This document shows, piece after piece, positions 9,338 to 37,458 of a stretch of 49,538 nt of DNA. The notes below the pieces were generated by a model. It was not told where the DNA came from. It searched no databases and saw only the letters and a list, made by a program, of their open reading frames with translations. The DNA lies in assembly GCA_030603495.1 (NCBI GenBank), contig JAUVXR010000020.1:1-49538 (forward strand). Direction: 5' to 3'. Position numbers and translations under genes: made by a program. The stretch is from a bacterium (lineage in GTDB: Bacteria > Armatimonadota > Zipacnadia > Zipacnadales > Zipacnadaceae). Each line of letters starts with the position of its first letter. The stretch's first letter is position 1.

Positions 9338-10408
9338 CTACCGTTGGGGGGCCGGCGGTGGCTCTTCGCGTATAATCACGGTGCGCATGGGGAAGGAGAT
9401 CTCGATACCCTCCTCATTGAAGCGGCGGAAGAGCGCCTTCATGAATTCGTGCTCGAGCAGGAATCTCTGCGTGGGGTCTGTGACGCGCAGGACGGTCACG
9501 AAGGTGATGTTGGAATCGGCGAATTCCTTGAAGCGCACCACCGGCTCCCACTCTCGGTTGGTGCCCTCGACGCGATTCTGCACCGCTTGCCCAACTTCCT
9601 TCGCAATGCGTTCCACCTCGTCGAGATCGCTGTGGTAAGCCACCCCGCACCGGATGTAGACCGACATCTCGGGGACGGGCTGGTGCCAGTTAATGATTAC
9701 GCTGTCGGCCAGCTTGGAGTTCGGGACTATCACCAGGTTATTGTTAAATGGCCGAATACGCGTGGCGCGCCAGCCGATCTCCTGGACAAAGCCCTCCTGG
9801 CCGCTGTCCAGTTGGATGTAGTCTCCGGGCCGGATAGGCTGATCGAGCATGAGATAGAAACCAGAAAAGAAGTTGCTCAGGGTGTCCTGCATAGCCAGCG
9901 CAACAGCCAGGCCGACGATACCGAGGCTGGCGAGCAGCGGGGTTATCTCCAAGTTGAGTTGACTAGCGATGAGCAGCGCGGCTACCACGATAATCACGAT
10001 GTTGATAATCTTGCGTAGGCCGCCGACGTATGCAGCCCGCGGATCATGGGCCTCGCGTAGGTTTTGGTGGTGGCCTCGCATGGCCGTATTGAATACGCGC
10101 AGACCTGCATAGACAAAGGCAAGGGTCAGCGCAATAGCCAGAGCCACAGTGACCTTGTCCGTGGACTCTTCAGACATCTCGAACTGGATGATCGTCGCGT
10201 ATATGCCGACTACAGCGATTATCCAGCACAACGGGGCGACAAGCAGGCGCCAGTAGGTCAACTTGATTTCGACCGGCGTCATCCGGTCGATGCGATTGAT
10301 GACCCTGGGCACTACCAGCAGTACGACCACGATCAACCCGCCGGTAACTCCCAGAGGAATGGCCAGGTCAATCCAGTGGCTGGCGACGAATTCCGCAAGT
10401 TGCGGCAT
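9338..10408 (-). CDS. MscS family mechanosensitive ion channel
   Basis: A small-conductance mechanosensitive channel of the inner membrane that opens on osmotic downshift. Four hydrophobic segments precede the pore (roughly residues 10-35, 55-72, 84-104 and 128-150). The pore-lining helix reads 'GIVGLAVALAMQDTLSNFFS' around 160-180. The beta domain follows with 'DQPIRPGDYIQLDSGQEGFV', 'IGWRATRIRPFNNNLVIVPN' and 'NWHQP', then the C-terminal alpha/beta cage domain. The 356-residue length is between E. coli MscS (286) and larger homologues. A four-helix N-terminus suggests a YnaI/YbdG-like layout. It is transcribed alone, divergent from the repeat-protein gene. Confidence 0.93.
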   Translation of the reverse strand: MPQLAEFVASHWIDLAIPLGVTGGLIVVVLLVVPRVINRIDRMTPVEIKLTYWRLLVAPLCWIIAVVGIYATIIQFEMSEESTDKVTVALAIALTLAFVYAGLRVFNTAMRGHHQNLREAHDPRAAYVGGLRKIINIVIIVVAALLIASQLNLEITPLLASLGIVGLAVALAMQDTLSNFFSGFYLMLDQPIRPGDYIQLDSGQEGFVQEIGWRATRIRPFNNNLVIVPNSKLADSVIINWHQPVPEMSVYIRCGVAYHSDLDEVERIAKEVGQAVQNRVEGTNREWEPVVRFKEFADSNITFVTVLRVTDPTQRFLLEHEFMKALFRRFNEEGIEISFPMRTVIIREEPPPAPQR

Positions 10409-10672
10409 CTTTGCTCACTCCTTTCGATCTATGTATGCTATATTACCCGCATAGCGAACATTTGGCAAAAGACCTGGCAGCTAGAGATGTCAGCTAAGGT
10501 GCTCGTTGGAGGTATGGCTGAAGCACTTGGCTGGGCATCTTTAGGCAGCAAGTCAGGAAATCCACTGAACAAAACCCAACTGGACTGTGTCTATCAGTAC
10601 GTAATCCGCCCAATAATAGGAGCCAGCGCCGGCTCCTGACGGGCAAATCTCACGGAAACGAGGAGGACGGAA

Positions 10673-11764
10673 ATGAAGACGAAGGTACTGTTAGTGACGA
10701 TGGTGACCGTAGTGGCCATGGTGGCCAGCATCGGAGCGTGGGCACACGAGGAGGGCTCCGATTCGTGTGAAGGGGAAGGCTCCACCTACGCGAAGCACGC
10801 TCGTATGCCTATGCTCACGCCTGAACAGCGTGAGGAAGTGAAGGCGAAGGTCGCGGAGATGGAGGAAGCTGGTGCCCGCCCCGAGGAGGTCCGCGAGGCT
10901 GTAGCCGACATGCTCAAGGCCTGGGGTATCGAGCGCCCGCAGCGGGGTGCCAACACAGGCGACCGCGTAGGTATACTCCAGCAGCTTACACCCGAGCAGC
11001 GCGAACAGCTCCAGGGCAAGACTGCTGAACTGCGCGAGCAGGGCGCCACCCCTCAGGAGATTCGCGAGGCCGTCGGCGATCTGCTGCAAGGCTGGGGCAT
11101 TCAGCCTGGGGCTGGCCAGGGCGGTCAGCAGGCTGCGCCGCCCCGTTGGGGACAGCGAGGAATGGGCATGATGCAGCAGGGACAACGAGGAATGGGCATG
11201 ATGCAGCAGCGGGGTCAGCAAGCTGCACCGTCGCGCTGGGGCCAGCAAGGGCCAGCTCCCCAGTGGGGCCAGCAAGCTGCGCCGCATCGTTGGGGCCAGC
11301 AGGCTCCGCCTTCCCAGTGGGGGCAGCAAGTCGCACCGTCGCGCTGGGGTCAGCGAGGAATGGGCATGATGCAGCAGCAGCGGGGCCAGCAAGCTGCACC
11401 GCATCGTTGGGGCCAGCAGGCTCCGCCGCCCTATTGGGGGCAGCAAGCCGCACCGCCGCATTGGGGACAGCAAGCTGGGCCGCCCCGCTGGGGGCAGCCA
11501 GCGTCACCTCCGCAGTGGGGTCAGCAAGGTCCACCTCCGCAGTGGGGACAGCAACAACAGGCCTGGCGTGGTCAACAGGGCCGCTATGGTCAGCAGGCCC
11601 AGCGCTCTGGGTGGCAGATGATGATGCAGCGTCTGACGCCTGAGCAGCGCGAAGAAGTTCGCGCCACGGTCAAAGAGCTGCACGAGGAGGGCGTTGAGCC
11701 CCAGGAGATCCGCGAGGCTCTCCGCGACTTGCTGGAGGGATGGGGCATCGCCCCCAAGCCGTAG
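10673..11764 (+). CDS. secreted repeat protein: three 39-residue LTPEQR modules around WGQQ nonapeptide repeats
   Basis: No family is recognised with confidence. A signal peptide (residues 1-24, cleavage after AWA) is followed by two helical modules at 48-86 and 105-143, and a third at 321-359. Each opens with LTPEQRE and closes with L(K/Q/E)xWGI. 'LTPEQR' recalls the LTxxQ motif of the periplasmic Spy/CpxP family, but the rest does not match closely. The middle (about 150-300) is low complexity: 'RGMGMMQQ' occurs three times, and a nonapeptide of the form WGQQxxPxx repeats with exact 9-residue spacing of tryptophans at 189-225 (five) and 246-291 (six). Arginine, histidine, methionine and glutamine are rich and lysine is absent. 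The start follows GAGGA by 8 bases. The gene stands alone, with a strong hairpin after it. A structural or metal-binding envelope role is a guess. Confidence 0.85.
   Translation: MKTKVLLVTMVTVVAMVASIGAWAHEEGSDSCEGEGSTYAKHARMPMLTPEQREEVKAKVAEMEEAGARPEEVREAVADMLKAWGIERPQRGANTGDRVGILQQLTPEQREQLQGKTAELREQGATPQEIREAVGDLLQGWGIQPGAGQGGQQAAPPRWGQRGMGMMQQGQRGMGMMQQRGQQAAPSRWGQQGPAPQWGQQAAPHRWGQQAPPSQWGQQVAPSRWGQRGMGMMQQQRGQQAAPHRWGQQAPPPYWGQQAAPPHWGQQAGPPRWGQPASPPQWGQQGPPPQWGQQQQAWRGQQGRYGQQAQRSGWQMMMQRLTPEQREEVRATVKELHEEGVEPQEIREALRDLLEGWGIAPKP
11213..11551 (+). repeat. 27-bp in-frame tandem repeats coding nonapeptides
   Basis: Units of 27 bases with core TGGGG(C/G)CAGCA recur in two blocks, about 11213-11356 and 11384-11551, inside the secreted repeat protein. 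The blocks are separated by a copy of the sequence coding RGMGMMQQ. Regular 9-codon spacing suggests growth by slippage or unequal crossing over. Confidence 0.8.
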
Positions 11765-11780: not shown

Positions 11781-11942
11781 TTAAGACCAGAGCAAATCAA
11801 TAGCGGGGGAGAAATGCCACCCAGATGGCATTTCTCCCCCGTTTGGTTTGCCTGTACAGTGCACGACCGCCACACCCCCACCGCGCATATCACAACCATC
11901 CGCCTGCGCCCCAAAACAAAGGATACGAAGCGGTTGTGGCAT
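11781..11942 (-). pseudogene. PIG-L deacetylase 5' remnant (copy A)
   Basis: From ATG at 11942 this minus-strand frame reads 'MPQPLRILCFGAQADGCDMR', then GGG and unrelated sequence, and stops at 11781 after 53 codons. It matches the start of PIG-L family deacetylases, whose zinc motif is AHPDD. Here that motif is decayed to AQADG. The downstream part runs into the hairpin at 11804-11841 and has no deacetylase features. It lies just downstream of the cupin gene. Confidence 0.6.
11804..11841 (+). terminator. strong hairpin after the secreted repeat protein gene
   Basis: A perfect 16-bp stem (11804-11819 with 11826-11841, arms CGGGGGAGAAATGCCA and its complement) has a 6-base loop, 40 bases after the stop codon. 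The tail TTTGGTTTG is T-rich but not a continuous T-run, so termination is likely but not certain. Confidence 0.6.
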
Positions 11943-13936: not shown

Positions 13937-14266
13937 CTACTCATCAGCAGGCAACTCCAACAGCCCCTGGCGCAAGAGCTTGCGGGCGATTTGATATACG
14001 TCGCGGGACTTGCCCTCCGTTCGCATCCCCACGGCCAGCACAAACACCGTATCGCTCTCATCGTCTATCAGGTATATGATCCGGTAGCGCGACCAGTGCA
14101 GCGACCGGTAGCCGCCCAGGTTACCCTTCAGCGGCCTGCCCCGTAACTGCGGCTCATCGGCCAATTCGTCCGCAGCATCCAGCAGCTTCGCCTGTATTGT
14201 CCGGTCGGCAATGTCTTGCAATAGGCCAACGGCAGTCTCTGTCCACCTGACCTGGTAGGCCGCCAT
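13937..14266 (-). CDS. RelE/ParE family toxin
   Basis: A 109-residue protein of the RelE/ParE fold, which inhibits growth by ribosome-dependent mRNA cleavage (RelE branch) or gyrase poisoning (ParE branch). The pattern 'VRWTETAVGLLQDIADR' at the N-terminus, 'LRGRPLKGNLGGYRSLHW' and 'SRYRIIYLIDDESDTVFVLA' matches RelE-like members, with the GYR..(W)RYRI(I/V)Y core. 'GMRTEGKSRDVYQIA' replaces the usual HR..VY. ATG at 14266 overlaps the antitoxin stop as TGATG; GTG three bases upstream is an alternative. The two genes are transcribed from the operator-promoter at 14588-14625. Which branch of activity it has cannot be told from sequence. Confidence 0.88.
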   Translation of the reverse strand: MAAYQVRWTETAVGLLQDIADRTIQAKLLDAADELADEPQLRGRPLKGNLGGYRSLHWSRYRIIYLIDDESDTVFVLAVGMRTEGKSRDVYQIARKLLRQGLLELPADE

Positions 14267-14577
14267 CACAGGGCCAGCCGCTCTCTGACTTCGTCAGCGC
14301 TGTATGTCCTACCCGCCTCAATGTCGGCCAGGCTGGCCTGCAACGCCGCCATCAGGTCCCGATCGCCAAGCACCAGGAGCGTTTCGATGATGCTCTCGTA
14401 AAGCTCCCAGTTCATAATGGCCAGCACCGGCTCACCGCGCCGCGTCACTTCAAAGGTGGTATTGGGCTCGTCAGCCAGGCGCTCGCCCAGTTGCATCAAC
14501 TGATTTCGGGCCTCGCTGATAGAAATCGCTTTGGGGGCAGGAGTGACCGCCTCTGCGTCAGAAATCATCTGTTTCAT
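14266..14577 (-). CDS. Phd/YefM family antitoxin
   Basis: A 103-residue antitoxin. The N-terminal DNA-binding part has 'ISISEARNQLMQLGERLADE' and 'FEVTRRGEPVLAIMNWELYE', the Phd/YefM signature in which the protein dimerises over its operator. The C-terminal part ('LLVLGDRDLMAALQASLADI') would be the toxin-neutralising tail. The start follows AAAGGAG by about 5 bases. The gene overlaps the toxin by one base and is the first of the pair, as usual. The upstream TGTACA-type palindromes, which YefM of E. coli is known to bind, support autoregulation by the antitoxin-toxin complex. Confidence 0.9.
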   Translation of the reverse strand: MKQMISDAEAVTPAPKAISISEARNQLMQLGERLADEPNTTFEVTRRGEPVLAIMNWELYESIIETLLVLGDRDLMAALQASLADIEAGRTYSADEVRERLAL

Positions 14578-35446: not shown

Positions 35447-35734
35447 ATGCACAGGTGGGCTCAACGACTGGTAATCGGTCTCATCAGGCTGTATCAGCGG
35501 ACCTTTTCAAGGGTACTGCCGTCGACCTGTCGCTACCAGCCGACCTGTTCTGAATATGCCGTCGGGGCTGTACGCATTCATGGTGTGCTGAAGGGCCTGG
35601 GGCTGGCAGGGTGGCGGGTAATGCGCTGTCACCCGTTTGCGACGGGCGGCTACGACCCGGTGCCCCTGCCCCACCCGCGGCTGGAGCACAATATTTCCCG
35701 GCAATCCACTACTGTAGAGTTGAGTGATAGATGA
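35447..35734 (+). CDS. yidD: membrane protein insertion efficiency factor YidD
   Basis: YidD is a small membrane-associated protein coded beside yidC in most bacteria and helps YidC-dependent insertion. The 95-residue protein has '[20 protein letters not shown]' with '[15 protein letters not shown]', followed by '[19 protein letters not shown]', all landmarks of the family (formerly DUF37). The start is taken at ATG 35447 because the family begins close to this residue; longer frames run back into the repeat before it and into rnpA. There is no strong ribosome-binding site. It overlaps yidC by 4 bases (ATGA), which implies coupled translation. Confidence 0.93.
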
Positions 35735-37458
35735 GAACCGTTAGCAATCTTTTCGCGGTGTGCCTGGTGCTAGCCCTGCCGGTGCTGGGTACGCCATCCT
35801 GGCTAGGCCAGGTCTGTGCTGAACCCCTTCCGGGCCAGGAAGGCCTGCCGCCGGAGCTAACGATCCCGGCGGAGCCAGAGTTGGATGACCAGATTGATGA
35901 CCTCGAGGACCTGGCCAAGTATGCCAAGAGAAACGCTCCTGAGACCGGCTTTGTTGCCAGCCTCAAGAATCTCTTTTCGGGCACGAAGAAGCCGCGGTTG
36001 ATAAATATTGATCTGCTGGCTGCTAACGTCTCCGAGTTGAAGGGCACGCAGATTGTGGTGGAGGGTATCTACGAAGTCCGGGGTGAAGAGGAGGCGATCT
36101 TCCGCAGCGAAGGCGCGACCTGTCATCTGACTCTGGCCGGTGGCACCCAGCCCGAGGGCTTTCCTGACTCGGGCCCCGATGGCTTGCCCGCCCGCGTCGA
36201 GGGCACCGTCGAGATGGGCGAGCAGGGCCTCCCGCTGATTCGAGTTCAGCAGCTCACTCCGGCGCTGGCACTCAGCTTCATTCGTCTGGGCCGCGCCTAT
36301 GAATTGGACGAAGAATACGAAGACGCCGTAGAGGCTTACTCAGCCGGCGCTGTGGCTGGAGTGCCGACCGGCTACAAGTACGCCGCCTTTGCCCGGATTC
36401 ATGCTGCCGAACTGGCGTTGGAGGAGCTTGACGACGGAGCCACAGCCCGCCGGCTCTATGATGCGGCTTGGACTGGATTCGCTGCCACCAAGACCAACGC
36501 GGAGACGGGCTACTACACCTGGACGCGACCGGCTAATGCGCAGACCTGGCAGAAGCAACCGGTCGGTGAAGCAATCCGTGAGCCGCTGGACAGTCTAAAG
36601 CGGGGCGGCTTCTGGTACGGTCTGGTCAACGCCTTCGTCAGAATAGCAGGCGGCAACCCGGCGTTCGGTGTGCTGCTGCTCGCCGTAGTCACCCGGCTGA
36701 TGATCTATCCCCTGACCAAGAAGCAGCTCGTCTCAATGCGGGCAATGCAGAAGATCCAGCCGCGCATTAAGGAGCTCCAGAAAAAGCACAAGGACAACAA
36801 GCAGAAGTTCCAGGAGGAGTTCTGGAAGCTCTGTAAAGAACACAACGTCAACCCCTTGGGGGGCTGTCTGCCCCTGCTTGTCCAGATGCCAATCTTGATC
36901 ATGATCTACCGGGGCATCCGTGACTATGCCGTCCAGTTCGATGGCGCCTCGTTCCTGTGGGTCAAGAACCTGGCGCAGCCGGACATCTATCTGCTGGTCG
37001 CCTACACCATCAGTATGATTGGCTTCCAGAAAATGACTCAGAGGATGAACCCGGCAGCGGCGATGGACCCCCAGCAGGCCAGCCAGCAGCAAATGATGAC
37101 CTACATGATGCCACTGTTGTTCTTCTTCATGTTCCAGTCGTTCCCGGCTGCGTTCATTCTTTATTGGCTGGGAACCAACCTCGTGTACTTCACCGAGCAA
37201 TACTTGTTTCTGCACCTCCACCGGGAGAACGGTGGCGACTCGGCTAACCGGGGGAACGGTGGCGACTCGGCTAGTGGTGGTAAGAAGACATCGGGTGGAT
37301 TTGCCGCCGCTATGGCGAAGATAGTCTCTGGGGCTGGCGCGAAGAAGGAAGCCAAGACCGAAGGCAAACCGCAGAGCTACGAAGAAACGAAGGCGGCTGC
37401 TGGAGGCAAGAAGGTTGGCAAGGAAGATAAACGCCGGCCGGCCAAGCGGCGGGGATGA
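35731..37458 (+). CDS. yidC: membrane protein insertase YidC/Oxa1 with unusual periplasmic region
   Basis: The insertase core lies at about 296-495 and has five-helix Oxa1 features. '[18 protein letters not shown]' carries the conserved groove arginine (R322). '[20 protein letters not shown]' is the cytoplasmic coiled hairpin, and '[20 protein letters not shown]' and '[12 protein letters not shown]' are membrane segments. A signal-like first helix (1-30) precedes a periplasmic part of about 260 residues. This part does not look like the beta-super-sandwich of Gram-negative YidC. It reads like an OB-type strand domain (about 88-175, '[20 protein letters not shown]') and then a TPR-like helical stretch (178-260). 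The C-terminal tail is basic with repeated NGGDSA. Total 575 residues. The context (yidD before, jag after) confirms the assignment. Confidence 0.93.

Follow-up and report, generated by a model that had tools for sequence, protein, structure and literature searches.

What might an exported bacterial protein do that repeats one LTPEQR-bearing module three times and places a long run of regularly spaced tryptophans between two of the copies? Such a protein is encoded in the window analysed here, which is the entire contig JAUVXR010000020.1 (49,538 nt) of a 2.67-Mb genome. The genome belongs to the Armatimonadota class Zipacnadia, whose members come from anoxic marine sediment (PMC10290634).

The gene and its predicted hairpin modules

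The gene and its flanking signals lie at the following positions.

10661-10666, + strand: ribosome binding site AGGAGG, found in the sequence shortly 5' of the ATG
10673-11764, + strand: open reading frame of the 363-aa exported modular protein, with homologues under purifying selection
10673-10744, + strand: Sec signal peptide, residues 1-24, with a cleavage site between AWA and H, read by eye
11804-11841, no strand assigned: 16-bp perfect inverted repeat, terminator-like, found in the sequence 3' of the gene

The window gene is real and conserved. A check of codon use, suggested in the first-pass annotation of this DNA, gave a GC3 of 0.71, near the 0.72-0.82 of neighbouring genes; homologues exist, and dN/dS is 0.18-0.29 in the C-terminal block, which indicates purifying selection. 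Open reading frames of 260, 182 and 165 aa on the opposite strand or in another frame inside the gene overlap with the repeat and were set aside as shadows. The proposal that the protein is secreted agrees with its Sec-type signal peptide, recognised by sequence, and relatives also keep a hydrophobic N-terminus ending in WA.

The three modules were found where they had first been described, with LTPEQRE at residues 48, 105 and 321 and WGI at 84, 141 and 357.

10811-10939, + strand: module 1, predicted two-helix hairpin (profile match 84 bits; AF2 helices 50-65 and 70-83)
10982-11107, + strand: module 2, predicted two-helix hairpin (profile match 83 bits; AF2 helices 107-122 and 127-140)
11630-11755, + strand: module 3, predicted two-helix hairpin (profile match 77 bits; AF2 helices 323-338 and 343-356; dN/dS 0.18-0.29)

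Across these 43-residue modules, 20 of about 40 positions are identical in all three. The LTPEQ motifs lie at, or just ahead of, predicted helix starts, and the second helix carries a conserved EI..A....L..WGI pattern. From a 28-row alignment of the module pair, AlphaFold predicted two helical hairpins at a mean pLDDT of 74; for the full-length window protein (AF2), pLDDT was mostly 87-95 in the modules and mostly <50 in the linker. The modules are thus predicted to be tandem two-helix hairpins. In half-modules, seen at L039:461-1129 and as the first module of L031 and L032, helix 1 continues directly into the WGI end; the likeness of the module's two helices to each other may let recombination delete one turn there.

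A tryptophan-rich linker and the spread of the module

Modules 2 and 3 are separated by a stretch of about 177 residues that includes 50 Gln, 32 Gly, 24 Pro, 14 Trp and 12 Met.

11102-11632, + strand: inter-module linker rich in Q, G, P, A, W, R and M, for the most part predicted to be disordered (pLDDT mostly <50; composition; Trp periodicity)
11156-11179, + strand: RGMGMMQQ copy 1, found in the sequence
11186-11209, + strand: RGMGMMQQ copy 2, found in the sequence
11237-11371, + strand: nonapeptide block A, Trp 189-225, delimited by Trp spacing
11354-11377, + strand: RGMGMMQQ copy 3, found in the sequence
11408-11569, + strand: nonapeptide block B, Trp 246-291 plus tail, delimited by Trp spacing

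The 11 tryptophans reported at nine-residue spacing are all present, five in the first block (189, 198, 207, 216 and 225) and six in the second (246, 255, 264, 273, 282 and 291), as are the three RGMGMMQQ copies, at residues 162, 172 and 228. Nine pairs of tryptophans stand nine residues apart; the linker was shuffled 100,000 times without once reaching this count (maximum 6). The nonapeptides had also been called exact; the period of nine stands, and the exactness does not, because W-G-Q alone is nearly constant, positions 5-9 being variable. All four GGN codons are used for the glycine of the WGQ units, so these are maintained at the protein level rather than being recent copies. A 117-bp internal duplication lies within the nonapeptide block.

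Comparison within the genus bears out the suggestion that the number of units would vary between relatives that keep the modules: there are 12 WGQ units in the window protein, eight in the homologue from G004, nine in that from G006, and at least eight in a partial homologue from G002; the G001 contig stops within the gene. Unit number probably changes by unequal recombination. The G004 and G006 homologues have a truncated first module, with 17 residues missing between its two helices, and lack module 2, while the linker and module 3 are present. Both genomes also carry a second, shorter module paralogue 3' of the main gene (L032:6824-7345 and L031:12406-12951), which is missing from the window. 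Proteins from other genera of the same order contain two to five tandem modules and no WGQ block. One of them, from G009, has a GGGxGQ repeat at the same inter-module position, which indicates that linker expansion at this point has occurred repeatedly and has involved different peptides. In the G014 homologue (L063:2268-3723) the modules span two overlapping frames, which looks like a frameshift or an assembly error. The nonapeptide blocks, taken at first as the core of the protein, are instead predicted to form a disordered linker between modules that is confined to the window's genus.

The module itself is far more widely distributed. Among 291 Armatimonadota genomes it is strong in one order only, and profile searches found it in 24 of 64 Latescibacterota genomes and 17 of 82 KSB1 genomes; no relative turned up in the viral contigs and plasmids searched. 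Every full-length relative inspected has a signal-like N-terminus, and most have two to six modules. Low-complexity linkers occur in all lineages and are rich in His and Met in KSB1; most Latescibacterota members start with an acidic segment of the DENADGIDDN type. Judged by sequence profile, the modules are the hallmark of a widespread, undescribed family with members in at least three phyla. We define this LTPEQR-WGI tandem hairpin family by a signal peptide and at least two 43-aa modules, both of which the window protein has. No family covering the modules was found in sequence searches of Pfam, NCBIfam and the PDB, and a limited search of the open-access literature found no description of this repeat. 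The initial statement that no described family has this architecture therefore holds for Pfam and NCBIfam.

Gene neighbourhoods and a putative envelope role

Beside the window gene lies a channel gene that is transcribed away from it.

9338-10408, - strand: MscS-family mechanosensitive channel, divergent neighbour (Pfam MS_channel, 1.5e-20; synteny)

All four members of the genus that could be evaluated have an MscS channel divergent from the module gene, and two members of a sister genus have one nearby. In G026 the gene for a PAS/HisKA/REC hybrid histidine kinase lies upstream of the module gene and stops 137 bp before it. The usual order in KSB1 is an ECF sigma factor, an anti-sigma-like protein, a CnrX-like anchored protein and, last, the module protein (for example L126:4772-8152, L119:5673-8765 and L128:6109-8755). 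Of 13 KSB1 loci, nine have this full order, one has it with intervening genes, and one has a divergent ECF gene only. An ECF gene lies within 5 kb at 11 of the 13, where ECF density would predict 0.54 (P ~4e-14, a value that ignores shared ancestry, the counted loci not being phylogenetically independent). The first gene of the KSB1 operon is certainly an ECF sigma factor; the second is called anti-sigma-like because of its position and a weak NCBIfam anti-sigma score (E 0.0028). The third encodes a membrane-anchored protein of 140-165 aa with two LT/TPxQ motifs; three of five cases scored weakly with LTXXQ or Metal_resist, and the profile of this protein aligns with that of Spy/CpxP/ZraP (probability 83). 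In Latescibacterota an ECF gene occurs within about 2 kb at eight loci, one of which (L130) also has zf-HC2 and Metal_resist-like genes; other loci have none. No ECF operon adjoins the module gene in Armatimonadota, and a search of the window's family, this genome included, found no CnrX-like gene, so that transfer of a role to the window protein rests on homology. The theme shared by these contexts appears to be sensing at the envelope.

These observations suggest that the window protein could act outside the cytoplasm as an envelope-stress effector, related or analogous to Spy, CpxP and CnrX but built of tandem repeats, the stress role being read from gene context. We put the probability of this reading at roughly 0.45; this figure and the weights given below to its rivals, chief among them a surface structural protein and generic convergent hairpins, do not sum to one, since the readings overlap. 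On this reading the protein and its relatives would be LTxxQ-type envelope-stress proteins in tandem-hairpin form: Sec-exported envelope proteins made of 43-residue hairpins, each of which opens with an LTxxQ cap and offers repeated amphipathic binding surfaces. The hairpins might hold damaged or unfolded envelope proteins, as Spy or CpxP would, or titrate the signal of a membrane sensor. In the window's genus, the flexible Trp/Gln/Pro linker would keep the hairpins apart and add many weak aromatic and cation-pi contacts.

A broader version of this proposal, which we advance tentatively and with rather less assurance, is that the module represents an undescribed extracytoplasmic domain family of at least three phyla, usually under ECF sigma/CnrX-type control in KSB1, that acts as a beads-on-a-string holdase or client trap. 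Its fast-evolving linkers, built of Trp nonapeptides here and rich in Gly or in His and Met elsewhere, might tune avidity or stickiness. If the holdase reading is true, the Spy/CpxP principle would also occur beyond Proteobacteria, in a modular, tandemly repeated form whose linkers diverge rapidly from one species to the next. The module provides a searchable feature for so far unannotated proteins of Armatimonadota, Latescibacterota and KSB1 that is tied to one regulatory operon, and this link to a specific operon makes function testable.

Resemblance to LTxxQ proteins and competing readings

Spy is an envelope-stress chaperone with four helices per monomer (PMC8144458), and CnrX acts with CnrY and CnrH (PMC4598750, PMC7689651). 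The module proteins share with Spy/CpxP/ZraP (LTXXQ, PF07813) their export, all-helical character, LTxxQ motifs capping helices and an envelope-stress gene context; however, Spy is a four-helix monomer that dimerises, whereas the module proteins consist of two to six separate 43-aa hairpins joined by linkers. The KSB1 operon is laid out like CnrYXH, with the module protein next to a CnrX-like (Metal_resist, PF13801) gene, but the module protein is a separate, unanchored repeat protein encoded downstream of that gene, and the window gene stands without the operon. In place of the CnrX anchor and the sigma/anti-sigma linkage, the window protein has a signal peptide that looks cleavable and, as its neighbour, an MscS channel, although its KSB1 relatives have the linkage.

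The likeness of the module starts to the Spy/CpxP motif, which the first-pass annotation had pointed out, persisted in profile comparisons with shuffle controls. In hhalign the module pair scored 36 against the CnrX-like profile of the KSB1 operon, over 64 columns in a two-motif register (block-shuffle maximum 21), and 30.6 against Spy/CpxP/ZraP (shuffle maximum 26.8); anti-sigma and sigma profiles, used as negative controls, gave probabilities <1. Against Spy the probability was 47-51 over 20 columns, the aligned part being 15-20 residues around LTPEQ, and with a single module 3 of 150 shuffles reached the score. The similarity to Spy and CnrX rests mainly on the LTxxQ caps and supports either a distant relationship or a motif in common, homology not being proven.

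Matches to individual families were sub-threshold. The N-terminal part of the window protein scored 12.0 bits with LTXXQ (E 0.37; gathering cut-off 24.3), for which the full protein gave no row, and 20.4 bits with Metal_resist (cut-off 29.2 bits); DUF3106 (PF11304) reached 24.1 bits with the N-terminal part and 15.3 with the full protein (cut-off 24.3 bits). Some multi-module relatives exceed the LTXXQ cut-off solely by summed weak repeats, and no single stretch does so; nor does a single module reach any curated Pfam cut-off. LTXXQ itself had no match in the seven genomes of the window's genus. Rows for CMD, TRIP4, Decapeptide, NPA and WHEP were set aside as weak or repeat-summed helical matches. 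The nematode polyprotein allergen ABA-1 and WHEP-TRS hairpins have a similar two-helix pattern with weak sequence scores, but they are eukaryotic, differ in architecture and lack the LTxxQ/WGI signature, and the likeness is probably convergent.

It is conceivable, though in our judgement doubtful, that the modules themselves are generic helical hairpins that arose by convergence and are unrelated to Spy or CnrX, in which case their function could not be read from those families. This would fit the PDB sequence matches, the best of which are mostly designed helical repeats, the shortness of the Spy alignment, and a Foldseek search that returned nothing at E <0.5; VIA-align likewise gave no convincing relative, the best rows being designed repeats or fragments (Z <=5.1). 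Spy was not among the structure matches listed, which excludes nothing about likeness of fold. The CnrX-like alignment argues the other way, as its two-motif register beats all shuffles while the negative controls fail.

A surface or extracellular protein with a structural or adhesive role, in which the hairpins are rigid beads on the sticky, flexible string of the W/Q/P-rich linker and serve matrix formation or adhesion rather than stress, seems unlikely, even though part of the KSB1 evidence favours it. KSB1 members carry a C-terminal FlgD_ig/Por_Secre_tail domain (of two proteins scanned, the better gave E 3.5e-15 and 1.1e-7), as do T9SS-exported repeat proteins, and the T9SS translocon component SprA was found in the KSB1 genomes tested; together these point to the cell surface rather than to a periplasmic chaperone and count against the envelope-stress reading. 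The variable module number, the low-complexity linkers of every lineage, the predicted disorder of the window's linker and the G009 repeat at the same site are also in keeping with such a role. The recurrent linkage to ECF sigma, anti-sigma-like and CnrX-like genes, however, would be unusual for a plain adhesin, and the domain is absent from Latescibacterota members and, by Pfam scan, from the window protein, which has no anchor; SprA was not found above the cut-off in the window genome (G000). One Latescibacterota genome also has SprA (G292:C1:3236145-3240854).

Distinctly less probable is a metal-binding or metal-stress protein, comparable to a soluble protein that works with a CnrX-type sensor and uses its Met-, His- and Trp-rich linkers as ligands. 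Metal_resist-like proteins in the same operons, the His- and Met-rich KSB1 linkers, the RGMGMMQQ copies and the HlyD and MacB efflux genes that adjoin the module gene in L124 would suit this role, but the G006 linker, with no Met and one His, has not kept the Met- and His-rich parts, and the modules have no conserved His, Met or Cys. The RNA-binding option raised at first, widened here to any low-complexity RNA- or DNA-binding protein, draws on the RG- and Q-rich stretches and is very improbable, since every lineage shows a signal peptide and a context of export and since Pfam and NCBIfam gave no convincing nucleic-acid-binding match.

Elsewhere in the window, two small overlapping open reading frames at 13937-14577 on the minus strand resemble, by eye, a RelE/ParE-type toxin and a Phd-type antitoxin, and the open reading frame at 35731-37458 contains two near-identical 27-bp tandem copies at 37220-37273.
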